Shown here piece by piece: positions 1,708-35,567 of a stretch of DNA of 49,335 nt. The position numbers and the translations under genes were made by a program. The stretch's first letter is position 1. Each line of letters starts with the position of its first letter. The notes beneath the pieces were generated by a model, which saw only the letters and a program-made list of their open reading frames with translations, did not search any database and was not told the DNA's origin. Location: positions 1 to 49,335 of the IMG/VR virus record IMGVR_UViG_3300023301_000017; one strand, 5' to 3'. This DNA comes from a virus.

Positions 1708-2325
1708 CTAGATTGTGGTTACTTTTGATACGCCATTCACTAGCTTTACGTTAAAAACTCGGTCTGCTTCATTTATAATCTCTGGTATGTGACTCACCAT
1801 CAATAACTGAATATTCAATTGGGTGCTTAGCTCTTTCAATAAACCAGAGGCTATTGTCTGCAAATCACGGGAAAGAAATTTAAAGGGCTCATCAATCATC
1901 AGCAATGCCCGTGAGTTTGAAATGTTCCACACTGCCATTCTCAGCGCAAGGGCTGCCACATCAACTGCACCATATCCTGAGTTATCAATAGGATCAATCT
2001 CATTCCCATTTCGGACAAAGAAGAAATCAACCTCTGTTTGATTACGTCGGGTTTCAAATTGAACCTTGAATTCATAAGGATCATCAAACACAGAAGCCAG
2101 TGCCATTGTTACTACGTTTGCGATATGAAACTCCAGAGTTTTCTGCATGTTGGCTGCAACTGTCTGGAGTATCGTCCTTGCTCTTTCAGTGGCAAGCATG
2201 GTTTTTTCGTGCTTGTCTAAAGAATCCTGTGCTTGTTTCAGATCAAGCCGGATAGATTCTTCTTTATGCTGAAGCCTGGTGAATTCTCTTCTGGCTGCCG
2301 CTAGATTTTGTTTATGCTCATTCAT
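1708..2325 (-). CDS. Rad50/SbcC-like ATPase, C-terminal half (split gene)
   Basis: C-terminal half of a Rad50/SbcC (T4 gp46-like) ATPase that would pair with the N-terminal half at 3825-4916 and the SbcD nuclease at 2821-3735. It begins with a coiled coil (residues 1-55), then an ABC-type signature region (N-S-G-Y-G-A-V-D, about 115-122), a Walker B (LLMIDEP, 141-147) and a V-S-H H-loop near 177. There is no Walker A, so it cannot act alone. I chose the ATG at 2325, which overlaps the upstream stop by 8 bp; in-frame alternatives at 2349 (ATG) and 2355 (TTG) also lack a strong ribosome site. Function is inferred from motifs and gene order. Confidence 0.85.
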   Translation of the reverse strand: MNEHKQNLAAARREFTRLQHKEESIRLDLKQAQDSLDKHEKTMLATERARTILQTVAANMQKTLEFHIANVVTMALASVFDDPYEFKVQFETRRNQTEVDFFFVRNGNEIDPIDNSGYGAVDVAALALRMAVWNISNSRALLMIDEPFKFLSRDLQTIASGLLKELSTQLNIQLLMVSHIPEIINEADRVFNVKLVNGVSKVTTI

Positions 2326-2572
2326 AAATGTGCCATACAAATTGACCATCAACAAAGCTGCCTACATGATTCGTGGCTGCATCAGGCAATTCACCACCTG
2401 TAGCTACAATATAGAGCTGCCTATTTACCATATCACTATCTGGCTCAACTTCAATCCAAATGCTCCCAATTCCCAAAGGATCGAATCCAACATGTACTAT
2501 TTTGCCTGTCCTTGTTAAGATTACGGGGCAAGAACTGTTATGGAATAAGTTGTATTTGTATATTTTCCGCAT
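2318..2572 (-). CDS. small phage protein resembling DUF7352
   Basis: 84 aa. The pattern of a short start (MRKIYKYNL), a central H-V-G-F-D with I-W-I-E-V, a G-T/G-G-E-L-P segment and a terminal V-W-H-I-Y-E matches a small phage family I know as DUF7352, function unknown. The start at 2572 is preceded by GGTAGGTG. It lies between the two genes encoding the Rad50 halves. Confidence 0.65.
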   Translation of the reverse strand: MRKIYKYNLFHNSSCPVILTRTGKIVHVGFDPLGIGSIWIEVEPDSDMVNRQLYIVATGGELPDAATNHVGSFVDGQFVWHIYE

Positions 2573-2580
2573 AGCATCAC

Positions 2581-2817
2581 CTACCATTCAAAGGTTTCTT
2601 TGAGCTTTTCAAAGTCAGACACAATTTCTGTGTTCTTCTTGGCTAGGTCAGCATTCAGCTTTTCAATCAGCTTGTCGCCTTCTTCGACGGTAGTGACCTT
2701 AAATGTCTTTTTGAGCCGATCAGTGATCTCGGCTTCACGCCCTTCGTACTGAGCCAAGCTTGTTTTTGTTTCATTGATCAGCTTGCCTAAACGGGCAAGT
2801 TCCTCTGTCATTCCCAT
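2581..2817 (-). CDS. small coiled-coil protein, 78 aa
   Basis: Almost entirely heptad-like helix rich in K, E and L, with no Cys and no catalytic motif. AGGAG precedes the ATG at 2817. Its position directly after SbcD and before the Rad50 C-terminal half makes it a candidate accessory coil of the SbcCD complex; that is inference from position only. Confidence 0.65.
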   Translation of the reverse strand: MGMTEELARLGKLINETKTSLAQYEGREAEITDRLKKTFKVTTVEEGDKLIEKLNADLAKKNTEIVSDFEKLKETFEW

Positions 2818-2820
2818 GAT

Positions 2821-3735
2821 CTACTCCTCAGCAAAGCAATCCTCTATAATGTCGGCTACTTCATCATCTTCATCCAACTTTTCTAATTCTTTTTCAACAG
2901 CTTCGGCGTATGACAGTATGATCTTTGCGCTGCCAATCTCACCTTTAATCGATTCTGCAAAGGCGGTTGTTTGTTTCTTTTGGTCTTTTTCCCGCTCTGC
3001 CCTTTCAATACTCATCACTTTCTCAATAGGATCTATCATCAAAGGAATCACGTCTATGGTTTTGAGTTTGGAATCATAGATCGTGACGGCTGGCTCATGA
3101 TTGATCTGAGCGATGGTTGACCGCATCATGCTCCCCATATTCACTAGGTGGCGATCACCTTTAGTAGCAGTAAACCTCTGATGATTGTCTCCTGAAACTA
3201 TCAGGTCGAACTTTGTTTTCAACAACAGATGATTTGCTCTGGTGAAATCTTCTTGGGCTTCCCAGAGCTTTTCGTCAATGACCATTCTGTGGGTGACCAG
3301 AATGTTAGTAGTATGAGCGCTTGCAATCTCTGGAATGTCCTGCTTCCAACTTGCGCCATAGATATGACATCCAGTACATGAAGTTTCATACGGGTCAGCA
3401 CCAAGCAGATGAAAATATCCTGATGTGACTAATGTTTGAAAAGCAGTACCACTCAAATCATCATTGTGGTATTTTTGATCGTGCTGTCCAGCCACTACAA
3501 GGATAGTGATTTTCGGAAACTCATTAAGGATGTCCATGACTTGTTGAACTACGCCATGATTTTCTTTGTGAGACTCAAACAAGTCACCAGGAAATATGAC
3601 ATAACCACAATTATTATCATTGGCAATTTGCAACTCCTCTCTGAACTTGCGCATAACCGTCCATTCAAAATCGTCGATTCTGTTCTTGGGTTTATGATTT
3701 GTAAGATGCTGGTCACCTCCCACCAGAATATTCAT
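2821..3735 (-). CDS. sbcD: SbcD/Mre11-like nuclease (metallophosphoesterase)
   Basis: 304 aa, the size of phage SbcD/gp47 proteins. Processes DNA ends and hairpins together with the Rad50/SbcC ATPase. Phosphoesterase motifs are visible in order: G-D-Q-H (D8, H10), G-D-L-F-E (D51), G-Q-H-D (83-86, where G-N-H-D is usual), V-T-H-R, and S-G-D-N-H. The C-terminus is acidic. AGGTG lies upstream of the ATG. It is the middle gene of the split rad50-N / sbcD / coil / DUF7352-like / rad50-C cluster. Confidence 0.9.
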   Translation of the reverse strand: MNILVGGDQHLTNHKPKNRIDDFEWTVMRKFREELQIANDNNCGYVIFPGDLFESHKENHGVVQQVMDILNEFPKITILVVAGQHDQKYHNDDLSGTAFQTLVTSGYFHLLGADPYETSCTGCHIYGASWKQDIPEIASAHTTNILVTHRMVIDEKLWEAQEDFTRANHLLLKTKFDLIVSGDNHQRFTATKGDRHLVNMGSMMRSTIAQINHEPAVTIYDSKLKTIDVIPLMIDPIEKVMSIERAEREKDQKKQTTAFAESIKGEIGSAKIILSYAEAVEKELEKLDEDDEVADIIEDCFAEE

Positions 3736-3798
3736 TGATCACCTACCTTATTCAGTTTGGCAAATAAAAATTTCATTTCTTATTCTCTTTCTAATCAG

Positions 3799-3807
3799 AT
3801 TATATCA
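3799..3807 (-). promoter_or_regulatory. possible extended -10 promoter upstream of sbcD
   Basis: In the 89-base gap between the Rad50-N and SbcD genes the minus strand carries TGATATAAT, an extended -10 (TGnTATAAT). No good -35 is present. A 14-codon ORF with a weak ribosome site follows, which could be a leader peptide or chance. Confidence 0.35.
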
Positions 3808-3824
3808 GTGAATCGCTGACGCCG

Positions 3825-4916
3825 TTATAATTTCTTTTCCAGGTTATTTAGTGCCTCGACGCCCATAACAGAATGACAGACAGGACACTCACCAGCATCA
3901 CCTATTGTTTCCAAATATTTATCGCTGTGGGTTTTTAATTCTGTGGCTAATTCTTTAATGGCGTCTTGCGCAGTTTCCAAATCATCCAGCCCTTCTTCCA
4001 CTATCTTTATATTGAGCTTACTGGAATCAGCGATCACAATCTTGCCAGTGATCAAAAGATATGGGGCCTCAATTTCAAGCCAATCTTTGTCGCCTTCAAT
4101 TGCTGCACGGATTTCCCGATGCTTCTTTAATAACTCCTCCAAAGAATGAGACTCTTCATAAACTTTCTGGTGCTCCACTATCTTGTCAGCCAGCACATGA
4201 TAATCAGGCTCAACATATAGGAACTCTCTCAGTTCATTGATTGACTTGATAACAGTAGCAAGATTGGATGTGTCTGTCGTCAAGGTATTTAGCTTCTCCT
4301 GCATCTTCTCTGCTTCATCTATATCATGAGCTATCTTGTTTAAAAAAGCTTCGGCAGCAGACAAATCAGGAAGAGCGTCCACAGACTCCGAGAGTGATGC
4401 CACCTTCAAGTCTGCTCGGTTTATTTCGTCTCTGGCATTTTTCACTTTGCTGTTGATTTTTTTGGATATGCGATCAATGATATCCAAGCCCACTAATTTG
4501 TTCATGAGCTTGCCACGTTCGCCTGGTGAATCTTGCAGCAAGAAGTAAGGTTGAATTTGTGTTTGGATATTACATTCTACCAATCTGTGGACATTTGTTA
4601 TCTGGACAGGCACATCAGCCCTCAATGCCTCAAACGTGCCTTCTTCTGTCTCGTACATGTTCTTGCCTTTGGTACGAGATTTTATAAGCCAAGCATCATC
4701 AAAATCCAGAGCCACTGAGACAGAATCCTTTTCATCAGCATCCCAGTTCTTGAACCCTTCTCCCATTGGTCTGTTGCGAACAGCCCAAAGTACAGCACGT
4801 AATAAGGAAGACTTTCCAGAATCTGTAGTGCCGCTGATGATATTGAGTCCTGGATGGAGTTCTATGGTCGTTGATTTGTGGCTTTGATAATTGAGGACTT
4901 CTATCGATTGCAGCAT
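3825..4916 (-). CDS. Rad50/SbcC-like ATPase, N-terminal half ending at the zinc hook
   Basis: 363 aa. The N-terminus carries a Rad50-type start and Walker A (G-T-T-D-S-G-K-S, 29-36), then a Q-loop region (Y-F-L-L-Q-D-S-P), a long coiled coil, and a C-P-V-C zinc-hook motif at 344-347, only 16 residues before the stop. A complete Rad50 would continue with the returning coil and Walker B; these are in a separate gene at 1708-2325. The start at 4916 follows AAGAGGAATT and overlaps the resolvase stop region. Expected to tether and remodel DNA ends with SbcD. Confidence 0.88.
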   Translation of the reverse strand: MLQSIEVLNYQSHKSTTIELHPGLNIISGTTDSGKSSLLRAVLWAVRNRPMGEGFKNWDADEKDSVSVALDFDDAWLIKSRTKGKNMYETEEGTFEALRADVPVQITNVHRLVECNIQTQIQPYFLLQDSPGERGKLMNKLVGLDIIDRISKKINSKVKNARDEINRADLKVASLSESVDALPDLSAAEAFLNKIAHDIDEAEKMQEKLNTLTTDTSNLATVIKSINELREFLYVEPDYHVLADKIVEHQKVYEESHSLEELLKKHREIRAAIEGDKDWLEIEAPYLLITGKIVIADSSKLNIKIVEEGLDDLETAQDAIKELATELKTHSDKYLETIGDAGECPVCHSVMGVEALNNLEKKL

Positions 4917-11748: not shown

Positions 11749-12687
11749 TTAAGCCTTACATGCTCGGAAGACCGCTGCGTGAAGTCCCGCTATGCCAGAG
11801 TCGAAACAGTTTTCGGAAAGACAATCGATGATTTCAACAACACGATCAGGGTCAGCACAATTATCACTCATCAGGACAGTGTTCATGTAGCGGAGAATGC
11901 CACGACGAGTTTTCTCTGGTTCAGAACTGATACCTTTCAATAAGAATCGACAACTGTCCCAACGCCCCTTTCTGTCACTTAATATCTCTCTGCAAAGCTC
12001 TTTACTGTCTTGCTCTGTCATTGTAGCGTCGGAGATAGCTGCCAGAGCTGTCTTCTCGTCTAAGATGTCTATCACGCTGTCAAGTACAATCAGCGCTTGA
12101 CGGGGAGAGCCCTCAGCGACTTTGACAATCTCTTTAATCACTGCTGCGGAGAATTCTTCTTTTGCGATTCCTTCAGACTCCAGGACTTCATACAAAAGTC
12201 TATTCATCTGAGGAGTAGCCAAAGATTTAACCTCAAATTGCATACATCGTGAAGCGAACGCTGGTAACAACATTTCAGGGTCAGTGGTGCAGATGATGAA
12301 AAAGACATGGGGCGGTGTGTCTTCCAGTATCTTCAGCAATGCATTTTGTGCGCCTTGCTTGCCTGCCGTGAGTGCATGAGCCTCGTCAAGTATGTAAACC
12401 TTTACGTCACCAGAATTCGGAGAGTATTGTGCATTGACCTGGATTTCACGAACCATATCAATGCCATTGTTTTGGGCACAGTTGATCTCATTAATATCAT
12501 CAAGGGAACAACCTACCATTGTTGCAATGATTCTTGCGATAGTTGTCTTGCCTGAACCCTTAGGTCCTTTCATCATGACAACATGAGGCTTGTCGTCCCT
12601 CATAAACACAGACTTGATGGATTCCTTGATACCATCATTACCTACCACTTCATCTAATGTTTTGGGTCTCTTTTCAATATGTAACAT
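11749..12687 (-). CDS. clamp-loader AAA+ ATPase (DnaX/RFC-small-like)
   Basis: 312 aa. Loads the sliding clamp (15522-16556). Walker A G-P-K-G-S-G-K-T at 41-48, Walker B Y-I-L-D-E-A-H around 98-103, sensor 1 I-C-T-T, and the S-R-C arginine-finger motif at 146-148, which is diagnostic of clamp loaders. No zinc module between Walker A and B, unlike DnaX. A single loader gene is visible. AAGGAG precedes ATG 12687; a long leader separates it from the promoter at 12853. Confidence 0.88.
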   Translation of the reverse strand: MLHIEKRPKTLDEVVGNDGIKESIKSVFMRDDKPHVVMMKGPKGSGKTTIARIIATMVGCSLDDINEINCAQNNGIDMVREIQVNAQYSPNSGDVKVYILDEAHALTAGKQGAQNALLKILEDTPPHVFFIICTTDPEMLLPAFASRCMQFEVKSLATPQMNRLLYEVLESEGIAKEEFSAAVIKEIVKVAEGSPRQALIVLDSVIDILDEKTALAAISDATMTEQDSKELCREILSDRKGRWDSCRFLLKGISSEPEKTRRGILRYMNTVLMSDNCADPDRVVEIIDCLSENCFDSGIAGLHAAVFRACKA

Positions 12688-12867: not shown

Positions 12868-15519
12868 TTAATGTTTCGTTAGGCTTTCTAGCAAAAATTC
12901 TTCCTTAGTAGACCACGGTTGATTCACTTCAGTACCTTCAAATTCGATGTCGAGTGGCACTATAATCCATGGATGCTCTTTTCTAATATCAATAGTAGCA
13001 ATCTGGTTACTCAAGTGACACCAATCATGCTTTTCTTCTGGAACTAAATCCCCCAGGCAGCAATCGTGAATCTGGCCAATGATTTTGGAATTCATCTCAC
13101 GTTCTTCCATTGCCTTAATGAGTTTATTGATAACCCAAACAAGACAGTGGAAAGCAGTACCTTGAATATTGTAATTGCATATATCGTTCTTGGATAAATA
13201 GCCACCTGTCCTAAATCCAAATAACTGTTCGATGTAACCTTTTTCCAAGTAGCTCTTGAACATTTTCTCTTGCCAAGCTTTGACACCTTTAAATCTATTC
13301 CAAAACTTTTTCTCCACATGCTTGACATGCCGTTCAAAATCTTCTTCCGCAGTTGCTAGGGAACGAATGATACCAACGTCCCGAAGGTGTTCAAACATGT
13401 TACAATAACCTGTGGTCATTTTCTTTAGTTTTGGAAACACGCCTCGAGCTATCGAACCATAGTAGGAGCCATAAAACAATGCAAACACCTCATCGTTCTT
13501 GGCAACGAATCTGACGTCTTTGGCATGTTTGGTATGGTTTTGCTTGTCCAGTGAGACCATAAAATCCCACTGCTTGTCAGTAAAGGAGAACAATTCCTTT
13601 GCTTGATCTCTATGCATATCAGTAGAAGGATCATTGATATAGGCCATAAGGTTTTCGTCCTGTGTATAACAGGCGATGATCCTGACTTCCATGCTACCGA
13701 AATCGAAATCTGTCAGCATATTGCCTAAAGAGGGGATGACGCCTCCTCTTGTTATGGTCATCGCTTTTTGTTCTCTTACAGGTATATTTTGGAAGTTAAC
13801 CCTACTTGACGATCCTCTAAATGTGCTAGTGGTATGCAAGTCAAAGAAAGGATGGAGCTTGTCATCATCATCAATTTCACGATTGAACTGTCCTAAGTAT
13901 GTACCATGAATTTTCTTCAGTTTGGATATGGCTGTGATTTCTTTGGCTAGTGGGGTATCAAGTTCTTCCATCACTGAGGCGTCAACACTTTGACCTCCTC
14001 CACCAGTAGGTTTAATACTTTTCAACCCCATAATATTGAAGAATAGATCAGCTTTATCTTGGGGGGAACCAAAGTTAATTGGACGTCCGCGCTCTCTGAG
14101 AAACCTCTGTGCTTCAGGAAATTCATGCAAGCTAGTTTCCATTTCTTCGATCTGCTTTATCAGCTCCACATCTTGGTCCAAGTAGTATTGTCTGTTCAGA
14201 GGAATTCCATTCTCTTGAAGATCACAGAACGAATAAAGACCTTCCATAAAAAACTCTCTTGCAGCTCGCATCTTCGGATATTTTCTGAACTCTTCTTCCT
14301 GTTCTTCATACAGATTAAAGGTGAGTAGTGAGTCGATACCATCATAAAGCAGTAGCTCGTTGAGTGGGGCTTCCATGATACGATTGAAGGGCGTGTCTTT
14401 ATCAGACTTTAAATATTTGGCTATTGATTTATCATACTCAGGTATATCCCAACGAATCAATGATTGGAATTTTAAACCGCTAAACGACTTTCTGTTATCA
14501 AGAATGTGGGCAGCATTCATGGTGCACCAGTACATATTCTCAGGAGAGACATTAAAGAACTCTCTTGTCCACATATCCTCGAATTTTGAATTGGCGGCTA
14601 TTTTCTTGATGTCAGGATCGCTCATTATTTTATGCCAAAGATCAGCGATGATTGTCCTTTCCTTTTGAGTAAAATGATCCCTGTACTGATAAGGAAATGA
14701 ATAAGCCAGATCATATTCGTAGCAGAAACCGACTGATGCAATTTTGTGATCATCACGATATGGTTTAAGACCAGTAGTCTCGTAGTCGAACGCGAATTTT
14801 TCAGGTCTAACTTCCAGAACTTTATATAGCACTGCAACGACGTCCTCAAATTTCTTGAGAATACGGACATTATCAATGGGCATTGCTTCAGGTTCTACAT
14901 ATGATTTGGAGCATTTTATGGCATGCTCCAATTGCTTATCATAGAACATCTGAAAATGGGCATCTTTTTCCTTATTAAAAGCAAACGAAGGATGGTACAT
15001 AGGTAGCACCCACGCCTTTCTTTTCATGTCAGGAATGCATAGACCAGCGAATCTATTCACCGAGATATTGTCTATCCTGTCGTGGTAGTAGCTGTAAATT
15101 GCATCAGTACCCATCAACCATATGAATTGAGGTTTCAACTCATCAATTGTTTTCCTGAGTCTGGTACTGCAATACTTGACCTGAGATTTAGTGGGAGTAT
15201 TGTTCTTTGCTTTTGCGGCATGGCATGCAACAGCGTTAGTTTTCCAACAATCTCGGTTGATGTTGATGCCAAGTCTTTTTAGTTTACCTGCGAACCATTG
15301 TCCCGTCTCTCCTTCCAGTGGAGCTCCACTAATATCATCAGCAGCACTAGGGGATTCAGCAACGATGAGGATTCCTTTTCCTCCTTCACCCGCGAATCCC
15401 ATCATAGGCGTTACACAACCTTTAGATAGTCCACACTTACTACAGGCGTCGGAGCCCAAAGTTTCTTGAGCCTCGACGCCATCCAATTCATCGTCATCAA
15501 AGAAGCCTACTGTCTCCAT
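12868..15519 (-). CDS. UDG-domain / family A DNA polymerase fusion
   Basis: 883 aa replicative polymerase. Residues 1-200 are uracil-DNA-glycosylase-superfamily (family 4-like): C26-x2-C29 with C99 and C117 as probable Fe-S ligands, A-E-S-P-S in the place of G-E-A-P-G, and Y-H-P-S-F around H176. A 3'-5' exonuclease domain follows (D245-x-E247 in F-D-Y-E-T-T-G). The Pol I palm has motif A D-F-D-F-G-S-M-E-V-R, motif B R-F-V-A-K...F-Y-G, and motif C Q-I-H-D-C (818-820) where H-D-E is usual. The 5' nuclease is a separate gene. UDG-PolA fusions are known in some phages, such as SPO1. Start at 15519 follows AAAAGGATAATC. Confidence 0.9.
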   Translation of the reverse strand: METVGFFDDDELDGVEAQETLGSDACSKCGLSKGCVTPMMGFAGEGGKGILIVAESPSAADDISGAPLEGETGQWFAGKLKRLGININRDCWKTNAVACHAAKAKNNTPTKSQVKYCSTRLRKTIDELKPQFIWLMGTDAIYSYYHDRIDNISVNRFAGLCIPDMKRKAWVLPMYHPSFAFNKEKDAHFQMFYDKQLEHAIKCSKSYVEPEAMPIDNVRILKKFEDVVAVLYKVLEVRPEKFAFDYETTGLKPYRDDHKIASVGFCYEYDLAYSFPYQYRDHFTQKERTIIADLWHKIMSDPDIKKIAANSKFEDMWTREFFNVSPENMYWCTMNAAHILDNRKSFSGLKFQSLIRWDIPEYDKSIAKYLKSDKDTPFNRIMEAPLNELLLYDGIDSLLTFNLYEEQEEEFRKYPKMRAAREFFMEGLYSFCDLQENGIPLNRQYYLDQDVELIKQIEEMETSLHEFPEAQRFLRERGRPINFGSPQDKADLFFNIMGLKSIKPTGGGGQSVDASVMEELDTPLAKEITAISKLKKIHGTYLGQFNREIDDDDKLHPFFDLHTTSTFRGSSSRVNFQNIPVREQKAMTITRGGVIPSLGNMLTDFDFGSMEVRIIACYTQDENLMAYINDPSTDMHRDQAKELFSFTDKQWDFMVSLDKQNHTKHAKDVRFVAKNDEVFALFYGSYYGSIARGVFPKLKKMTTGYCNMFEHLRDVGIIRSLATAEEDFERHVKHVEKKFWNRFKGVKAWQEKMFKSYLEKGYIEQLFGFRTGGYLSKNDICNYNIQGTAFHCLVWVINKLIKAMEEREMNSKIIGQIHDCCLGDLVPEEKHDWCHLSNQIATIDIRKEHPWIIVPLDIEFEGTEVNQPWSTKEEFLLESLTKH

Positions 15520-17641: not shown

Positions 17642-18577
17642 CTAGAAAAGGGTTGTCGCAACAGTCTTAGGCTTCCAAACTAAATCTTCCCACGCTGGTG
17701 AATTCTTTTCAAGATCGAGATAATACAGCAGGTTTATTTTGTCTCTTATTTCATGGCTATTGGACAGACCTTTCTCTTGTATAACTTCAACCAGATTTGT
17801 AGATCGATCTGCCCACTGTTCACCAGCTGTTATCTTATGTCCATCAGCCACATGTTTGAAACAGGATGAGCCCATCACGAAACCATTCTCCTCACAATAC
17901 TCATTGAAGTATTCTTGGTGCAGACCGACCAGATTATCATAATGCAAGTCCTTGCTTTTGCTTGCAGGACGTGAGGAAACAAAGACACAATACGGTGACT
18001 TTGTGAAGTCATAGACACCGTTCTTCTTGTAAGGAATGATCACGATGCCGTACTTGCCGAACTGCACCCATGATGTTGAATCTACACTGAACCAGGGGTA
18101 GCTGGTCATCAGAGAAGGTGAAGTCAGAGCAAAGCCATGAATCTTGTGAGTGGGTTTGTAAATAGGTCCTGGACAGATATAAGTGAAGACTGGTATACCG
18201 ATGTTCTTAGTCCAAGCCACTTTGCTGACTTCTTGACCTAAACCAGAGACACCGATATATTCGTAGTTGTCACAGTATTTTTTGAACCAACTGAAATCTT
18301 CGCCAGAATGATATACTGGCAGAGGACTGACACCGAACTCGTCTTCAAGGTGTCGCTGAACTTTCCAAGAAAGCTCAGGACTATGAATTACATCCACAGA
18401 GACATAAACATCTAATAGGTGTTTATTCTCCTTCAGCCACTGACCATAATCGTTCACGTAATTCCAGAACTCATCGGTCTCATAATATTCAAAGTTGAGT
18501 ACGCCATGCTGTTTTTTAAGCACCTCTCTGACGAAAATCGAATGTGCTCCACTGTCAACCATCACCTTAGAAGCCAT
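17642..18577 (-). CDS. dpdA: DpdA-like 7-deazaguanine DNA transglycosylase
   Basis: 311 aa, TGT-related. DpdA-type enzymes exchange guanine in DNA for a 7-deazaguanine precursor. The two catalytic aspartates of TGT-like enzymes are suggested by V-D-S-G-A (D8) and S-V-D-S-T-S-W (D166); between them V-Y-V-S-V-D-V-I, P-V-Y-H-S-G-E-D-F and H-G-F-A-L-T-S follow the pattern of phage DpdA proteins. It ends the operon that also has folE, while queD and queE lie just upstream. AGGAG precedes ATG 18577, inside the end of the preceding gene. Confidence 0.75.
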   Translation of the reverse strand: MASKVMVDSGAHSIFVREVLKKQHGVLNFEYYETDEFWNYVNDYGQWLKENKHLLDVYVSVDVIHSPELSWKVQRHLEDEFGVSPLPVYHSGEDFSWFKKYCDNYEYIGVSGLGQEVSKVAWTKNIGIPVFTYICPGPIYKPTHKIHGFALTSPSLMTSYPWFSVDSTSWVQFGKYGIVIIPYKKNGVYDFTKSPYCVFVSSRPASKSKDLHYDNLVGLHQEYFNEYCEENGFVMGSSCFKHVADGHKITAGEQWADRSTNLVEVIQEKGLSNSHEIRDKINLLYYLDLEKNSPAWEDLVWKPKTVATTLF

Positions 18578-20119: not shown

Positions 20120-21052
20120 CTAAACAACGGCAGAGTTTTTATACTTTCGTTTAATCTCGGACTGGTACATGTTCCAGTGATATAATGCAGGACTACGCAT
20201 GTAACACTTGGCACACACATCACGGTATTGTCGAGTCTGTATCTCCTCGCGCATCTTTTTGACTTCATCACCTGCCCAGACTTCCCGTAGTGTTTGATCA
20301 TTCAAATTGCCGTAGATGACATCATCACCTTGGGAATTGCAGCAGCAGCCCACGTTACCATTACACATGATTGTGACAGAGAACCAAGGATTGATACACA
20401 AGTCCTGACTCACAGGCAGAGAAATCCCGTTTTGCATAAAGGCTACGTAGCAGTTAGGTTGGGTTCTGATGTTGCATTTATAACCAGAAAACTCATTGGC
20501 TATTTGATCTCTTGCATTTTCCCAATCACCGATCTCAATGATCTGCAAATCAACGGCAATGTCATTGTCTGCCGCGCGTGTTAATAAATCTTTGATGTCA
20601 TGTATCAACTTATCGACTGGAGTCGCTTCACCTTTCGATTTTCGCAACTCTCCATGCTGTTCTATGCTGTCAATGCTGACTGTAATGATGTCAAGTTCAA
20701 GGAGTGCTTTCATCTGCTCTTGAATGTAGACCCCATTGGTGCTGAGACCAGTCATTACGCCAGTCTCTTTTACCTTTTTGATGATTTTATGAAGTTCAGG
20801 ATGGAGTAATGGTTCGCCAGAATGCTGAAACTCCACAAAATATGATGCGTCAAGATCACCCTGACGAATGATTTTGTCCACTAAATTCATTGATATGAAC
20901 GGAGTGGTATCCGAACGAGGAAAGAATTGAGCAGGGCACATGGGGCATTGAAAATTGCATGTAGAAGCGACCTCTATCTGATACACTTCTGGCAGTGGAG
21001 GCAATATCTGTAGAGGCAATGGTCCTATATGATCCTTAATAATGTCTGTCAT
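20120..21052 (-). CDS. radical SAM protein with SPASM-like C-terminus
   Basis: 310 aa. The radical SAM cluster motif C32-x3-C36-x2-C39 (T-C-N-F-Q-C-P-M-C) is followed by H-S-G-E-P-L and S-T-N-G strands. The C-terminal Cys set (C-I-N-P-W..C-N-G-N-V-G-C-C-C...C-A-K-C) fits an auxiliary-cluster SPASM/twitch domain. Substrate unknown. Co-operonic with folE, a glycosyltransferase and the DpdA-like gene, so a tailoring step on the deazaguanine base is plausible; peptide modification is the alternative usual SPASM role. Confidence 0.82.
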   Translation of the reverse strand: MTDIIKDHIGPLPLQILPPLPEVYQIEVASTCNFQCPMCPAQFFPRSDTTPFISMNLVDKIIRQGDLDASYFVEFQHSGEPLLHPELHKIIKKVKETGVMTGLSTNGVYIQEQMKALLELDIITVSIDSIEQHGELRKSKGEATPVDKLIHDIKDLLTRAADNDIAVDLQIIEIGDWENARDQIANEFSGYKCNIRTQPNCYVAFMQNGISLPVSQDLCINPWFSVTIMCNGNVGCCCNSQGDDVIYGNLNDQTLREVWAGDEVKKMREEIQTRQYRDVCAKCYMRSPALYHWNMYQSEIKRKYKNSAVV

Positions 21053-21058
21053 TTAACC

Positions 21059-21655
21059 TCACAGAGGGGATTGAGAAAGTTGAATTAGATCCAAACATTC
21101 GTGACGGGTTTCAGGATGCTCTTTGAACGTACCATACACCGCAGAGCTAATCATTCCAGTATTGTTGTATTGCTCAACGCCCCTGCAAGACATGCACCCA
21201 TGAATAGCTCGCATAACGAGCATGGCACCTGCAGGCTTCATAACTTCCACAAATCTGTTCATGATCTCATGTACCAGATTTTCTTGTAGTTGGGGGCGAG
21301 AGGCATAATGCTTGACCAGACGGGGCAGTTTTGATGCACCAGCAACATCATGAGAGCCTGGAATATATGCGAACCATGCGCGGCCCGAGAATGGTAAAAA
21401 GTGGTGACTACAAACTGACGTAAAATGAATATTATCGATCATGACCATTTGGTCATAGTTTTTATCGTTAGGGAAACGGGCGAACTGATCTTCGGGAAAT
21501 TCGTGCCCAACTCCATGAAACAACTCCTTTCCATACATCTTGGCTACTCGCTTAGGTGTATCTTTGAGGTTAGGATCATTCAAATCTAATCCCATGCCCT
21601 CAATCATCATTGCACGAAAATGGTCTTCCATTACTTGTAGATTCATTCGGTTCAT
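21059..21655 (-). CDS. folE: GTP cyclohydrolase I
   Basis: 198 aa from ATG 21655, which has GGAG 7 bases upstream. Converts GTP to dihydroneopterin triphosphate, the first step of 7-deazaguanine (and folate) synthesis. Hallmarks: T-P-K-R-V-A-K-M-Y, C-S-H-H-F-L-P-F (zinc Cys/His), S-K-L-P-R-L-V and H-G-C-M-S-C-R-G-V. With QueD and QueE this supplies the precursor for the DpdA-like enzyme. Confidence 0.92.
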   Translation of the reverse strand: MNRMNLQVMEDHFRAMMIEGMGLDLNDPNLKDTPKRVAKMYGKELFHGVGHEFPEDQFARFPNDKNYDQMVMIDNIHFTSVCSHHFLPFSGRAWFAYIPGSHDVAGASKLPRLVKHYASRPQLQENLVHEIMNRFVEVMKPAGAMLVMRAIHGCMSCRGVEQYNNTGMISSAVYGTFKEHPETRHECLDLIQLSQSPL

Positions 21656-21668
21656 AGGTACTCCATAG

Positions 21669-21697
21669 AAGGAGACCGACAATGAGTCGGTCTCCTT
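21669..21697 (-). terminator. 12-bp hairpin just upstream of folE
   Basis: Perfect inverted repeat AAGGAGACCGAC / GTCGGTCTCCTT with a 5-base loop. On the minus strand it is followed by CTATGG, not a U-tract, and lies directly before the folE ribosome site, so it may be a weak terminator or a processing/translation-control hairpin. Confidence 0.55.
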
Positions 21698-21717
21698 AGT
21701 TTCAAGAAGTTAATGGA

Positions 21718-22275
21718 TTACGCAGGTTTTACAACTCCGGAGAATTTGGGCGTGGGACCTTCAGTCTCGGTGATAACGACGTTGCGATTTGCGACCAGGA
21801 ACTTCATGTGGACACTGATACGAGCTTTGGTGCTACCTGATGCGGCCGTCAGCTCATCCATAGTGCCACCAGCAGCGAGTGCCACATCAATGTTGTTTGC
21901 GCCAGAGCCGACTGTGGAACCGAATGGGCCTTTTTCAACGATTTTTTTGTCTTTTTTCTCCTTAGGAGCTTTTTCCTTCTTCTCCTTAGGAGCTTTTTCA
22001 GCACCAGGCTCAGCGCCAGGCTCAGCGCCAGGCTCAGGAGCACCAGCACCTTCGACCTCGTCGGCGAACAAAGAATTGTACATGTTGACCACGCCATCAG
22101 TCAAAGAAGCAGAATCATCATCCGAAACGCTCTCGACGCCTTCAACGAATGCATCGACCAAAATCTGCTTGGTCACGCCGATAACTTTGATTGATGCAGG
22201 CAACAGTTCCAGACCATTTAACTCTTTTACAGCAGCTTTCAATTCCTGCATGTTCACTTTGTCAATTCCGATCAT
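21718..22275 (-). CDS. HU-operon protein with repeat linker and winged-helix-like C-terminus
   Basis: 185 aa. The middle has P-G-A-E repeats followed by two K-A-P-K-E-K-K units, a histone-tail-like Lys-rich linker. The C-terminal part (G-G-T-M-D-E-L-T-A-A-S-G-S-T-K-A-R-I-S-V-H) looks like a helix-turn-helix and resembles the C-terminal part of the protein at 40902-41444. Encoded next to HU, it is a candidate nucleoid-associated or regulatory protein. AGGAG precedes ATG 22275. Confidence 0.6.
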   Translation of the reverse strand: MIGIDKVNMQELKAAVKELNGLELLPASIKVIGVTKQILVDAFVEGVESVSDDDSASLTDGVVNMYNSLFADEVEGAGAPEPGAEPGAEPGAEKAPKEKKEKAPKEKKDKKIVEKGPFGSTVGSGANNIDVALAAGGTMDELTAASGSTKARISVHMKFLVANRNVVITETEGPTPKFSGVVKPA

Positions 22276-22307
22276 TTCTTTTCTCCTGTCTCCCTTATGG
22301 GGATTGG

Positions 22308-22583
22308 TTAATTGATCTTGTTCTTGAGATCAGTGGCTGGCTTGAATTTAACAGCCATTTTTGCGGCGATGTTGATAGATTCCCCAGTTGATGGGTTTCT
22401 GCCAACACGTGATTCTCGCATCGTAGGAACGAATTTGCCGAAACCAGCAATAGCGACATCAGTTCCTTCTGATAGCTGATCAGGGATGATAGAGCCAAAC
22501 AGTGCATCGAAGGTTTTCGATACATCGGTTTTGCTTACTCCTGATTCTCCAGCAACAGCAGTGATTAATTCAGATTTGGTCAT
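22308..22583 (-). CDS. HU-family DNA-binding protein
   Basis: 91 aa, the normal HU length. Typical start T-K-S-E-L-I-T-A-V-A, then G-F-G-K-F, the DNA-binding arm R-x-G-R-N-P-S-T-G-E, and the C-terminal helix. HU proteins bend DNA; phage versions such as TF1 of SPO1 bind modified DNA, which is interesting beside a base-modification operon. GAGAGGAG precedes the ATG; first gene after the promoter at 22675. Confidence 0.92.
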   Translation of the reverse strand: MTKSELITAVAGESGVSKTDVSKTFDALFGSIIPDQLSEGTDVAIAGFGKFVPTMRESRVGRNPSTGESINIAAKMAVKFKPATDLKNKIN

Positions 22584-22674
22584 TCTGTTCTCCTCTCTTT
22601 GGGTCTGTTGTAATTGACTTGCCTAGTTTCAATCCACGCATTGAATAAGGCGACTTTTCATTTCTTCTATTTAA

Positions 22675-22683
22675 ATCATAACA
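22675..22683 (-). promoter_or_regulatory. extended -10 promoter for the HU-folE-dpdA operon
   Basis: Minus strand TGTTATGAT preceded by CAAAAACG, resembling the 6912 and 17620 sites. About 90 bases of leader precede HU. Confidence 0.55.
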
Positions 22684-22745
22684 CGTTTTTGAAGCCCCGT
22701 AATGGTTAATTGACTTTTTTGAAAATAAATTAAATTACCTATGAA

Positions 22746-22783
22746 ATCAGTAGGTTAGCCCGAAACATCAATCGGGCTCTGAT
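22746..22783 (-). terminator. hairpin overlapping the end of queE
   Basis: AGCCCGA / TCGGGCT stem with an outer ATCAG / CTGAT pair. It begins inside the queE stop region; no strong U-tract follows. Probably a weak terminator before the HU promoter. Confidence 0.5.
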
Positions 22784-23415
22784 AAATTTAACTCCTTATG
22801 GGCCTGAAAGTTGAGGTATATGTCACCTTCTTTACTCTCCATAATCCATTTAAGCAAAGTATTAGGAGTGACTCTACCGTATTCAGGTGAGAAAGCAAAA
22901 CGTGCAGCAACACCCGCAAATTGGAGCTGCATTTTCGTATACAACATGCCCAGAAACTCCTGGTAGCTGCCAACAACTATCTTGATAAAGTCTGTGGTGC
23001 GCAGGTGCATGTTAATAATACGTGATTTGGAAACAGGAAGACGCGGTTTGATATCTACCACCCAATGAATATTACCGTAATCTTTGGCATCAAAATCATG
23101 CAGGCCATTAGTTTCTACTGTGACGTTATATTTTTGAGTGGCAAGAAGACCAAGCAACACACACAATGATCTTGCCTGCTCTAATGGTTCCCCGCCTGTG
23201 ATTGTAATGTTTTTACTTGGGCGGCTAATTACTTCCCGCAAGACATCATCTGCTGACATATCTTTGCCAGATGATGGATCTTCCGCATATTTTGTGTCAC
23301 ACCAAAGGCACCCAGCAGAGCAACCCGCAAATCGGATGAATGTGCATGGTGAGCCTATGCCCAAAGGGCCTACCTCACCATTCACAGAACTAAAAATGCT
23401 GTACACTTTCATCAT
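22768..23415 (-). CDS. queE: 7-carboxy-7-deazaguanine synthase
   Basis: About 215 aa. Radical SAM enzyme turning 6-carboxytetrahydropterin into 7-carboxy-7-deazaguanine. The motif C-S-A-G-C-L-W-C-D-T is C-x3-C-x2-C; I-F-S-S-V-N-G-E at the start and T-G-G-E-P are QueE-like. The start overlaps the queD stop; ATG 23415 and 23412 are equally possible. Works with FolE and QueD. Confidence 0.88.
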   Translation of the reverse strand: MMKVYSIFSSVNGEVGPLGIGSPCTFIRFAGCSAGCLWCDTKYAEDPSSGKDMSADDVLREVISRPSKNITITGGEPLEQARSLCVLLGLLATQKYNVTVETNGLHDFDAKDYGNIHWVVDIKPRLPVSKSRIINMHLRTTDFIKIVVGSYQEFLGMLYTKMQLQFAGVAARFAFSPEYGRVTPNTLLKWIMESKEGDIYLNFQAHKELNLSEPD

Positions 23416-23762
23416 TTGCACCATTCGGCATACGAGGTAGGTGTTTCGTACAGGCGAATTCGGTATAATGAAAGACCAAAAATGCTATACAGATCGTTTT
23501 GCATTACTATAACCATGTTCTCGGCAGTTGGATTATCAAAAACGCCGTTTAGGTGTTTGTGGTCATACTTGTCCACAATATGCTCTTTCATGGCTTTTTT
23601 CAAATCAACAAAATCCACGATCATCCCTGTTGTGTCATCGATGTTACCTGCAAGTGTGACTCTGACAGTCCACCTATGTCCATGAAGATTATGACAAGCA
23701 CCTTCATAATAAGGTAGGGAATGTGCTGCATCGAATGTACATTCTTTGGTGACTGATAGCAT
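23412..23762 (-). CDS. queD: 6-carboxytetrahydropterin synthase
   Basis: 116 aa, canonical QueD. Zinc histidines H14, H27, H29 (F-D-A-A-H, N-L-H-G-H), catalytic C23 (E-G-A-C-H), V-D-F-V-D-L-K, D-H-K-H-L-N, P-T-A-E-N and C-terminal E-T-P. AAGGAG precedes ATG 23762. Second enzyme of 7-deazaguanine synthesis. Confidence 0.92.
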   Translation of the reverse strand: MLSVTKECTFDAAHSLPYYEGACHNLHGHRWTVRVTLAGNIDDTTGMIVDFVDLKKAMKEHIVDKYDHKHLNGVFDNPTAENMVIVMQNDLYSIFGLSLYRIRLYETPTSYAEWCK

Positions 23763-32589: not shown

Positions 32590-32950
32590 CTTTAGTGGTT
32601 TCTATACGGATACTGCATTCACAGTTAGGGCATTCAATATTGGCAAATACTTGAAACTGCTTCTCGTTTTTTATAGGGTCACAAGCCCTGAGCAATCTAG
32701 CATCATCTACTTCTGGTAAAACACCAAATACCTCTTCTTTCTTTACTCCCAAAAAAACTTTATCTTTATCTATGGGAATCACATACCAATTACAGTATTC
32801 GTACTTATCAGGAGCAGGCTCATCAGCATCTTCCAAGTGCCTACACATATCGGCATCCTCTTTATCATCAAAAGTATCAATAAGTTTTGGTGCCCATTTA
32901 AAGCTCTTGATACCTGCGGGAGTAGGGATGTACCATACTTCATATTTCAT
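32582..32950 (-). CDS. hypothetical protein, 122 aa
   Basis: Beta-rich N-terminus (M-K-Y-E-V-W-Y-I-P-T-P-A-G), a C-P-N-C-E-C knuckle near the C-terminus. TAAGGAG precedes ATG 32950. Directly downstream of the helicase gene. Confidence 0.6.
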   Translation of the reverse strand: MKYEVWYIPTPAGIKSFKWAPKLIDTFDDKEDADMCRHLEDADEPAPDKYEYCNWYVIPIDKDKVFLGVKKEEVFGVLPEVDDARLLRACDPIKNEKQFQVFANIECPNCECSIRIETTKDA

Positions 32951-32961
32951 TCTGTGTCTCC

Positions 32962-35346
32962 TTATAACCATGAATTGTCCATATAGATCACTAGGCGCTC
33001 ACCGAAATGTTCTATAAGGAAACGATGACTGTTATTGAAAAAATCGTGGATGTAAACCTCATCCTTTTCACTTGTCTTTCTCAGACCCCGACCTACTTTC
33101 TGCAATAAGTTCTTTTCAGATTTCCCACCAGCAGCATTTATAACAGCGTTCAGATTAGGAATGTCAACGCCCTCAACCCACACAATACTGGCTACAACCA
33201 CTTTGAGTTCGCCTGAATTGAGTGCTTCTTTTACATCCACACGTTCTTGTGATTTTGTTGCGCCCCAGACATATTTGCATTCCACGTTTAAAGCATCCAG
33301 CTGCTCGACGATGTTGTGACCATGGTCTATCTTGTCTACAATAATCAGAACGGTCTCATTTTTTTCTGCGTGTGCCTTTGCTATTTGGGCTATCATTAAA
33401 TTGAGTGCCAAGTTGTGTGTGACTCCTGCATTATAAACATCAGCATACTTGCGGAGATCAGCTACGTCAAAGTCCTTATTCAGCTTGTGTAATTTGATGC
33501 GAGGCTCTGCTAATATACCTAAATCACTACCTTCATTGATTGTCAGCTCACCAAGTACGGGACCAATCAATCCTTCACAAACGAGGACTTCTTCACTGTC
33601 ATCATCCATAAGTGTAGCAGTCAAACCTAATCTGATAGGAGCAGGTACTCTTGTCAGCACATATTGGTATTGGCTGTCCTTCTTAGCTACATGGTGGCAG
33701 TTATGTACCAGTAGACCATCAACATAGTAATTATGGTCGTTTTCTACTTCAAAATCATAGAGGTATTTGAACCCCTGATCTTTCTCTTGATCTGAAATAA
33801 TACCTTCGAAAGATCGGTCATTACTTCCTCGTTGGTAAACCTCAACACCGACCACCCTAACGCTGTCAATCTGATTTCTTTCTTGGCATCCTGTTCTTTT
33901 CTCCCAGGAAAGCTGTGACTCGCTCCGTCCACCTCTATAGCAATCATTAGCTTTGGATGCACTATGTCGACCTTGTAATGTGTTGGGTATCCTACAGTTC
34001 TCCTGGACCCTATGGGCTTGTCGGGAAAAGGAATCACTATGTGGTTGTTCTTCCAAGCATTTCCTAAAGCTACCATAAGTAACATCTCCGCAGCAGACGG
34101 GGCTTTCCCGTTTCCTCCTCGATCTGTTCTGTTTTGAAAGCCTACTGTACCATTTATTCTTTTGGTTGCTTTTATTTTTTCTTGGACACCCGGCATGTGA
34201 GAAGGGTTGTTTGCCTTCATTCTTTCTGAAATGATGCTCCTTCTTTTTAGATTGGTTTTGGTCATTCTCTCTGAACTGGCCTTGTTTCTTTCTGGATCTT
34301 TGTAACCACATGGTCTGGAGCAGTAGATGTTGTAGCGTGTTTGAAACACTTTTCCGCATTGGGGGCAGATTTTTTCTTTCATTTGAATCTCCTTTTGGTA
34401 ATGTGATGCAATGCATCATGTCACTAAAAGAAATCCTTGTTAATTCTTTTCCTGATAAGTATTTAGCTTCCATCCAAGCATATCGTACATCGAATAGATG
34501 GGTATCAGAACAGACATAAATCGACCCATCGGACATAGTGATTTTGGCCAGCCTGTTTAATGGGATTGCGTTTTTAAATGTTCTGGCTACCCTGTTATGT
34601 CCAGTTAAAGAACAAACGACGTCACCAGTTTTTATGTCTTGTATCTCTCTGTTACCAAAGGGGGCGGATATAGGCGTCCCAGCTGCAAAACACTCATCGG
34701 TCACCACGATGTCATACAAATGGCCCTGTTCATCCGTCAGTTTTTTGAATGACTGCCGAGTGGAAATGGTGATGTCTTTACCGCCTTCTGCACGACCTCC
34801 CCCGTACCTGCCAACACTCGTAAAACCAAAAGCAAGGGCTGATTTGTAGGTTTGCTCAACAAGATCGATTTTATGGCAGAGCCAAAGAACTTTCAATCCA
34901 GGATAAGCAGAGAGTATTCCGAATCCTAAAACAGTTTTACCTGAACCAGTAAACGAAACGATAGTACCTCTAGGTCTATCAAGAAAGGTATTGATCAGAC
35001 TCAGTTGGTCAGGACGGAAAGTAATACCAGGAAGTGCTGGTTCATAAGTAGTAATATCTTCCAGACTGTTATCGACTATGGTATAATCTATATTGTTTTC
35101 CTCACAGAAGTAGGCAATACGATCAACCAACCCTGCCCAGAAGTGGTAGACACCACCTTTTCCTTTAGTCATCATCGATTTGGTGTACTCGGTACGCTCC
35201 TTACGATAGATGCCCTGCTTCCAGTAGACAGCAGGGAAGGAAACAGCATCCTTAACTAGTGTGGCAAAGGCAGCAGAGCATTCTGCTTCAATGGGATTTA
35301 GGATGGTGATCTTATGCACGGGCTTGGGCATCATGAGTTTATTCAT
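32962..35346 (-). CDS. UvsW-like SF2 helicase interrupted by an intein
   Basis: 794 aa precursor. Extein residues 1-218 and 550-794 (463 aa together) form a UvsW/RAD25-like SF2 helicase: Walker A S-F-T-G-S-G-K-T (131-138), helicase motif II D-E-C-H-H, split by the intein between D-E and C-H-H, motif III-like L-T-A-T, motif VI V-G-R-G-L-R-K. UvsW remodels forks and recombination intermediates. The intein (219-549) starts C-F-A-A-G-T-P-I and ends V-H-N before Cys550. The frame stays open throughout, through a region that in another frame encodes a homing endonuclease. GGAGATGAAG precedes ATG 35346. Confidence 0.88.
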   Translation of the reverse strand: MNKLMMPKPVHKITILNPIEAECSAAFATLVKDAVSFPAVYWKQGIYRKERTEYTKSMMTKGKGGVYHFWAGLVDRIAYFCEENNIDYTIVDNSLEDITTYEPALPGITFRPDQLSLINTFLDRPRGTIVSFTGSGKTVLGFGILSAYPGLKVLWLCHKIDLVEQTYKSALAFGFTSVGRYGGGRAEGGKDITISTRQSFKKLTDEQGHLYDIVVTDECFAAGTPISAPFGNREIQDIKTGDVVCSLTGHNRVARTFKNAIPLNRLAKITMSDGSIYVCSDTHLFDVRYAWMEAKYLSGKELTRISFSDMMHCITLPKGDSNERKNLPPMRKSVSNTLQHLLLQTMWLQRSRKKQGQFRENDQNQSKKKEHHFRKNEGKQPFSHAGCPRKNKSNQKNKWYSRLSKQNRSRRKRESPVCCGDVTYGSFRKCLEEQPHSDSFSRQAHRVQENCRIPNTLQGRHSASKANDCYRGGRSESQLSWEKRTGCQERNQIDSVRVVGVEVYQRGSNDRSFEGIISDQEKDQGFKYLYDFEVENDHNYYVDGLLVHNCHHVAKKDSQYQYVLTRVPAPIRLGLTATLMDDDSEEVLVCEGLIGPVLGELTINEGSDLGILAEPRIKLHKLNKDFDVADLRKYADVYNAGVTHNLALNLMIAQIAKAHAEKNETVLIIVDKIDHGHNIVEQLDALNVECKYVWGATKSQERVDVKEALNSGELKVVVASIVWVEGVDIPNLNAVINAAGGKSEKNLLQKVGRGLRKTSEKDEVYIHDFFNNSHRFLIEHFGERLVIYMDNSWL
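33700..34692 (-). mobile_element. intein with nested endonuclease gene in motif II of the helicase
   Basis: 331 codons. Block A C-F-A-A-G-T-P-I; block B around G-S-I-Y-V-C-S-D-T-H-L-F; block F Y-L-Y-D-F-E-V-E-N-D-H-N-Y-Y-V-D-G; block G L-L-V-H-N followed by Cys+1. The splicing parts are about 100 N-terminal and 30 C-terminal residues. The roughly 200 residues between are Lys/Arg/Gln/Ser-rich without any fold signature and are the out-of-frame reading of the endonuclease gene at 33744-34382. Confidence 0.88.
33744..34382 (-). CDS. EDxHD (Vsr-like) homing endonuclease nested in the intein, different frame
   Basis: 212 aa with its own AAGGAGATTCAA ribosome site. N-terminal zinc finger C6-x2-C9, C21-x3-C25; a NUMOD3-like DNA-binding stretch (S-E-R-M-K-A-N-N-P, about 52-70); then a Vsr/DUF559-like core: D139 (Y-K-V-D-I-V), E150-x-D152 (I-A-I-E-V-D-G), H156, D165 and L-G-W-S-V-L-R-F-T-N-E-E-V. 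This resembles the endonucleases reported between split-intein halves in phage genomes. Its last codons overlap the intein block F in another frame. Confidence 0.85.
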   Translation of the reverse strand: MKEKICPQCGKVFQTRYNIYCSRPCGYKDPERNKASSERMTKTNLKRRSIISERMKANNPSHMPGVQEKIKATKRINGTVGFQNRTDRGGNGKAPSAAEMLLMVALGNAWKNNHIVIPFPDKPIGSRRTVGYPTHYKVDIVHPKLMIAIEVDGASHSFPGRKEQDAKKEIRLTALGWSVLRFTNEEVMTDLSKVLFQIKRKIRGSNTSMILK

Positions 35347-35567
35347 AATTCTTCATCTCCTCCTATCTGCCTGTTGTAGTGATCGGTTTCAAAAGATGAA
35401 AGTAGTTCCAGCAATTCTGTCGTTTTATCACTTTTGAAATTACGACCAGCCACTTCGCCAGCATCATAGGCAGATTTAACTAAACACTTAACCACCGTTC
35501 CAATATAATCATTTCCCCATTCAATACTATCAAAATCATTATCCTTTTTCCACTTCTCAAGAGTCAT
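35343..35567 (-). CDS. hypothetical protein, 74 aa
   Basis: ATG 35567 overlaps the upstream stop (TGATG). Acidic, helical (V-V-K-C-L-V-K-S-A-Y-D-A-G). Its end overlaps the helicase start by 4 bp. Not recognised. Confidence 0.6.
   Translation of the reverse strand: MTLEKWKKDNDFDSIEWGNDYIGTVVKCLVKSAYDAGEVAGRNFKSDKTTELLELLSSFETDHYNRQIGGDEEL

Follow-up and report, generated by a model that had tools for sequence, protein, structure and literature searches.

In the fractured genes of phages, said to have been described by Dassa and colleagues in 2009, a free-standing endonuclease of the Vsr-like (EDxHD) family reportedly separates the halves of a split intein, and the gp41-1 intein comes from such genes. 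The element considered here lies in a viral genome, IMG/VR record IMGVR_UViG_3300023301_000017, positions 1-49,335 (hereafter the window). It combines an intein in a UvsW-like SF2 helicase gene with a homing endonuclease gene nested inside the intein in the +1 frame. Fractured genes resemble it in that they are phage DNA-replication genes, involve the same endonuclease family and have given the closest solved intein, gp41-1. However, they consist of two open reading frames (ORFs) whose products trans-splice, whereas the window has one continuous ORF, with the endonuclease gene overlapping it.

Inteins with an in-frame endonuclease, such as PI-SceI, are comparable in that they join a Hint splicing domain to a homing endonuclease and spread by homing. 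There, one polypeptide has both activities, whereas in the window two proteins would be made from overlapping frames. I-Bth0305I, an EDxHD endonuclease of a group I intron in a phage recA gene, shares the catalytic fold, but it is carried by an RNA intron and the window endonuclease by an intein.

The principle of an endonuclease hidden out of frame is already published. Arsenault et al. (2025; PMC11855218) reported HNH genes lying out of frame within methylase insertions that have no splicing domain at all. The ShiLan insertion among these resembles our locus in that the endonuclease is hidden in another frame and the host frame is open across the insertion; it has an HNH enzyme, no splicing domain and no detectable ribosome site, and is found in mycobacteriophage methylases (PMC11855218), whereas the element studied here is a true intein with a Vsr-like enzyme, found in helicases and clamp loaders. 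The same paper cites a preprint by Gosselin et al. (2025, bioRxiv; 'Actinobacteriophage Inteins: ... Non-Canonical Architecture') for overlapping frames in actinobacteriophages; comparable elements may be described in that work, whose title restricts it to this group of phages. The papers searched contained neither a splicing intein that has a conserved +1 Vsr-like endonuclease nor an account of its phylogenetic breadth, the selection test or the two-zone map presented below.

The helicase intein and the endonuclease gene nested in it

All parts of the element lie on the minus strand, and coordinates are those of the window. The helicase gene (35346-32962) is a single open frame of 794 codons. 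Its N-extein (34693-35346) is the N-terminal half of a phage SF2 helicase (UvsW-like/ResIII; Pfam ResIII, 7e-16; PHROG DNA helicase) ending in VTDE, and its C-extein (32962-33699; Pfam Helicase_C, 4.5e-13) is the C-terminal half, beginning with CHHV. The intein between them (34692-33700; 331 amino acids, precursor residues 219-549; Pfam Intein_splicing, 1e-6) is thus inserted directly after VTDE in motif II (Walker B), at DE/CHH, where the slash marks the junction. It has C1 (start CFAAG), block B (CSDTH), block F/G (YLYDFEVENDHNYYVDGLLVHN), the end LLVHN and a Cys at +1, as in a class 1-like Hint intein. Removing it in silico rebuilds VTDE/CHHV, i.e., IVVTDECHHVAKKD, and the alignment of the spliced helicase with the intein-less helicase of Staphylococcus phage vB_SscM-1 crosses DE/CHH with zero gap at the junction. 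An earlier note, made from the sequence of this stretch alone, had described a helicase ORF open for 794 codons and interrupted in motif II by an intein, and the ORF check, the motifs and the restored junction agree with it.

In the structural model of the intein, a Hint domain is built from residues 1-90 together with about 280-331 (pLDDT, the predicted local distance difference test, 90-98); values of 96-98 were also obtained for the Hint arms. The N-arm of this domain (about residues 1-94; 34411-34692) also matches intN hidden Markov models, and the C-arm (about residues 276-331; 33700-33867) completes the fold. Foldseek matches to gp41-1 and other inteins reach E values down to 6e-7, and the best match in the PDB is the gp41-1 intein (6qaz), the nearest solved intein by sequence as well as by fold. 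Residues 95-270 are disordered (pLDDT 40-60), and it is approximately to these that the roughly 200 intein residues without fold signature mentioned in the earlier note correspond.

Given the ShiLan precedent, the insertion might remain in the helicase unspliced, as a tolerated loop; insertions in the ShiLan and Pacc40 methylases do hide out-of-frame HNH genes without a splicing domain (PMC11855218). In the window, however, both Hint arms are complete, and C1, the terminal N and C/S at +1 are retained in 148/148 non-redundant loci of the same kind (see below). Moreover, a loop of 331 residues at this position, inside the Walker B/motif II active site, should inactivate the enzyme, and we regard an unspliced insertion as extremely improbable. 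A search of 32900-35400 against Rfam, in which a group I intron core was looked for, gave no intron match up to E=1, and the fact that the frame is kept open argues against removal at the RNA level.

The nested gene (34382-33744; Pfam DUF559, 6e-13) encodes 212 amino acids in the +1 frame relative to the intein, and a Shine-Dalgarno sequence, AAGGAG (34389-34394), stands 6 nt before its ATG. The predicted protein has zinc-finger-like CxxC pairs at its N-terminus, an RGGNG motif and a Vsr-like/EDxHD catalytic domain; D139, E150, D152, H156 and D165 are invariant across 49 endonuclease sequences. Its AlphaFold model (pLDDT 89.9) matches, over residues 93-207, the endonuclease-like protein 3hrl (Z 13.4), the homing endonuclease I-Bth0305I (3r3p, Z 11.4) and Vsr (1cw0, Z 10.2). 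The catalytic fold, the E-D-x-H-D residues and the DUF559 match place it in the EDxHD/Vsr-like family. A 212-residue enzyme of this family with its own ribosome site, on the same strand in a different frame, is what the earlier note had proposed, and ORF, AAGGAG, family match and fold all fit that proposal.

How translation of this gene begins bears on a further alternative, that ribosomes enter the endonuclease frame by programmed +1 frameshifting out of the intein N-arm and not by internal initiation. Upstream of the ATG, this frame remains open for another 33 nt, and a clear Shine-Dalgarno sequence is missing in about half of the relatives; such loci may have weaker sites or use another route. 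In the window, however, both the Shine-Dalgarno sequence and the ATG are well placed, and 33 of 144 relatives have, in the start region, an ATG with a Shine-Dalgarno match of at least 5 nt, compared with 4 of 144 control ATGs (p=1e-7). This enrichment supports internal initiation as the predicted mode; frameshifting is unlikely.

Conservation of the arrangement and selection on the intein frame

Relatives were collected by searching with the endonuclease alone, so the state of the intein frame was not a selection criterion. The first matches (Pseudomonas phage MR14, Vibrio phages including CP-T1, Corynebacterium phage phi673 and IMG/VR contigs) all have an open intein frame, with the endonuclease at +1 to it. 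Wider scans brought the set to 207 loci with both intein halves, from Vibrio, Pseudomonas and Corynebacterium phages and from contigs filed under many bacterial phyla. A scan with a single intein N-arm sequence gave few loci. The offset is +1, with the N-arm and C-arm in one frame, in 207/207 loci; the intein frame is free of stops in 206/207; and no relative in these scans has the endonuclease in frame with the intein. For the five named phages that were checked, the database annotates the long helicase coding sequence only, i.e., annotation overlooks the nested endonucleases.

Most known inteins carry their endonuclease fused in frame, and one might imagine such an intein shifted by two compensating indels, whether real or introduced by sequencing, with the frame left open by chance. 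The identical offset throughout loci from unrelated projects, including isolated and sequenced phages, already refutes this explanation. The stop avoidance described below is far beyond chance and the endonuclease has its own start with a Shine-Dalgarno sequence; the probability of compensating indels is practically nil. A sequencing or assembly artefact and a double frameshift are ruled out by the same constant offset and stop avoidance.

Alternatively, the helicase could be a fractured gene, its halves made separately and trans-spliced, with a free endonuclease gene between them. The same endonuclease family and gp41-1, the nearest solved intein, come from fractured genes, and the UvsW gene of Salmonella phage STP4-a is indeed fractured into two separate helicase ORFs at the same site. 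The intein halves of the window, however, lie on one ORF, and the intein frame, continuous in all but one of the loci, is selected to stay so, which a split gene would not need. We therefore consider a fractured gene very unlikely at this locus. In STP4-a (L134, locus 1814-4540) the two ORFs separated at motif II carry the intein halves, and the middle ORF, of 291 amino acids, overlaps both ends and differs from that of the window; the locus is a fractured counterpart of the window element. An annotated homing endonuclease is located just upstream of it.

Whether the open intein frame reflects chance or selection was assessed by shuffling synonymous codons while the endonuclease protein and its codon set were held fixed. 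In the window, 11.1 intein-frame stops are expected under this null and 0 are observed; 0 of 20,000 shuffles reached zero stops (P<5e-5), the same order as the probability near 4e-5 that the earlier note had estimated for chance. Across the 148 non-redundant loci (29,367 codons), the intein frame contains 1 stop versus 1273±24 after shuffling, and the remaining (third) frame contains 2293. These loci share ancestry and are not statistically independent, although saturation at third positions is largely reached. Codons ending in T precede AA, AG or GA, where they would make a stop, at 1 of 6065 places, versus 5134 of 15442 places elsewhere. In endonucleases of the same family outside inteins, the equivalent frame has 26, 28, 9 and 12 stops; the first of these (L031:1531-2148) is a free-standing gene overlapping the start of an intein-less SF2 helicase gene.

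Chance openness is ruled out by this stop avoidance together with the stop-free loci. Given that relatives show an identity of only about 0.29-0.43 at third codon positions across most of the gene, the openness of the intein frame has been maintained and not merely inherited. Judged from these comparisons of sequences, the two-frame arrangement is ancient and is kept by selection against stops in the intein frame. Of the two explanations that the earlier note had offered, selection or recent origin, the first thus stands and the second does not. No selection for hydrophilicity of the spacer was seen, as its GRAVY (grand average of hydropathy) does not differ from the synonymous null (p=0.38); its hydrophobic fraction is slightly below the null (0.235 vs 0.242, p=5e-9), an effect too small to build on.

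Two zones of overlap and the movement of the unit

The overlap consists of two zones, distinguished by setting the conservation of the intein frame against a null that swaps synonymous endonuclease codons and disallows stops. In the first (33876-34382; endonuclease residues 1-169), the intein frame is stop-free and encodes the disordered spacer, and its conservation, compared over residues 3-169, is approximately that of the null (z about -2 to 6.5). In the second (33747-33875), the C-terminus of the endonuclease (GWSVLRFTNEEV... helix) lies over the intein C-arm (RVVGVEVY...YLYDFEVE). For endonuclease residues 170-204, conservation versus null is 0.37/0.21, 0.23/0.18 and 0.24/0.12 (z 36-59). 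The same DNA here encodes the endonuclease strand and helix GWKVLRFTNxEV... and the intein strands RVESVEIY...YDLEVE. These comparisons indicate that the intein frame is merely kept open in the first zone, whereas over endonuclease residues 170-212 both proteins are constrained. The endonuclease stop is inside block F, as the overlap of its C-terminus with block F had suggested in the earlier note, and the overlap with the conserved C-arm begins about 130 nt upstream.

The insertion site across relatives is Walker B, mostly DE/C. Of the host proteins of the 148 loci, 111 cluster as SF2-helicase type and 34 as clamp-loader AAA+ proteins, and the other 3 belong to neither cluster. Endonuclease and intein distances are correlated (Mantel r=0.63, permuted values at most 0.08), also when only the non-overlapping intein N-arm is used (r=0.51), and the trees require 6-7 changes of host type versus about 34 when shuffled. 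Because the distances correlate and host-type changes are few, the endonuclease and the intein travel together between genes. The unit has crossed between the unrelated families of SF2 helicases and of clamp-loader ATPases, with Walker B as its site in every case. The intein of the window helicase groups with clamp-loader inteins, and the same phage has an intein-less clamp-loader gene with Walker B LDEAH (11749-12687, minus).

A probable two-layer element and its possible relation to fractured genes

We think it very probable that the locus is one mobile element with two layers, a cis-splicing intein and an endonuclease initiated internally in the +1 frame. In the first layer, the 794-codon precursor would be translated end to end as a continuous intein, the two Hint arms would fold with a disordered spacer, about 180 residues long, between them, and the intein would excise itself and restore motif II, as suggested by the intact splicing residues and the Hint-fold model. 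In the second, a free-standing Vsr-like (EDxHD) homing endonuclease would be made from the same mRNA from its own internal start, to judge by its frame, conserved catalytic residues, fold and the ribosome-site enrichment. The enzyme presumably cuts intein-less Walker-B/motif II alleles, whose repair would copy the unit in. The spacer frame is probably kept open because any stop would truncate the host helicase or clamp loader, and the last 35-40 endonuclease codons, which also encode the final strands of the intein, would lock the two genes together.

Several points weigh against this reading. Splicing, endonuclease synthesis, cleavage and homing are all deduced from sequence. Some of the relatives without a clear Shine-Dalgarno sequence may begin the endonuclease otherwise. 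No close intein-less allele of the window helicase was found when looked for, the single match, at 100%, being a contig with the same intein, so that homing into this gene was not observed. Finally, in one locus, L036, the intein frame is interrupted by one TAG within the spacer (L036:3108-3110), which could be a nonsense mutation, an error or the first step towards a fractured gene. Recoding of this TAG is unsupported, since ORFs of L036 end in all three stops and the endonuclease itself ends in TAG.

Besides in-frame and fractured inteins, the arrangement is a third, stable architecture, and it adds one more way in which an intein can house a homing endonuclease. The earlier note had spoken of an intermediate or third form; 206 relatives of exactly this architecture support the latter, and it may also be an intermediate leading to fractured split inteins. 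We lean towards a widespread and stable third intein class, in which a mini-intein is combined with a free endonuclease gene overprinted in +1, and an open-only spacer zone with an entangling dual-coding zone. Fractured genes and natural split inteins could plausibly stem from this class, because one spacer stop and a new start would split the nested form, and L036 may be at such a splitting step. The origin of natural split inteins of the gp41-1 type thereby becomes testable. The element is also an unusually clean natural case of overlapping genes, with one part only kept open and another constraining both proteins.

Two further loci vary the arrangement. In L013 the N-terminal half of the endonuclease has been lost and the intein frame is still open, which fits the usual decay of homing endonucleases combined with a continuing need for the intein frame. 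L137 (3001-3807) has two intein-like pairs of N-arm and C-arm in tandem within one ORF, about one codon apart, possibly two back-to-back mini-inteins.

Elsewhere in the window, a cluster on the minus strand (20120-23762) includes genes for GTP cyclohydrolase I, a PTPS/QueD-like protein, a QueE-like radical SAM protein and another radical SAM/SPASM protein, which suggests queuosine-type (7-deazaguanine) modification. The gene at 17642-18577 may encode a DpdA-like transglycosylase, though it has no Pfam match. A DNA polymerase A gene (12868-15519, minus) encodes an N-terminal domain of the uracil-DNA-glycosylase superfamily (Pfam UDG, 5.6e-16) fused to 3'-5' exonuclease and polymerase domains.
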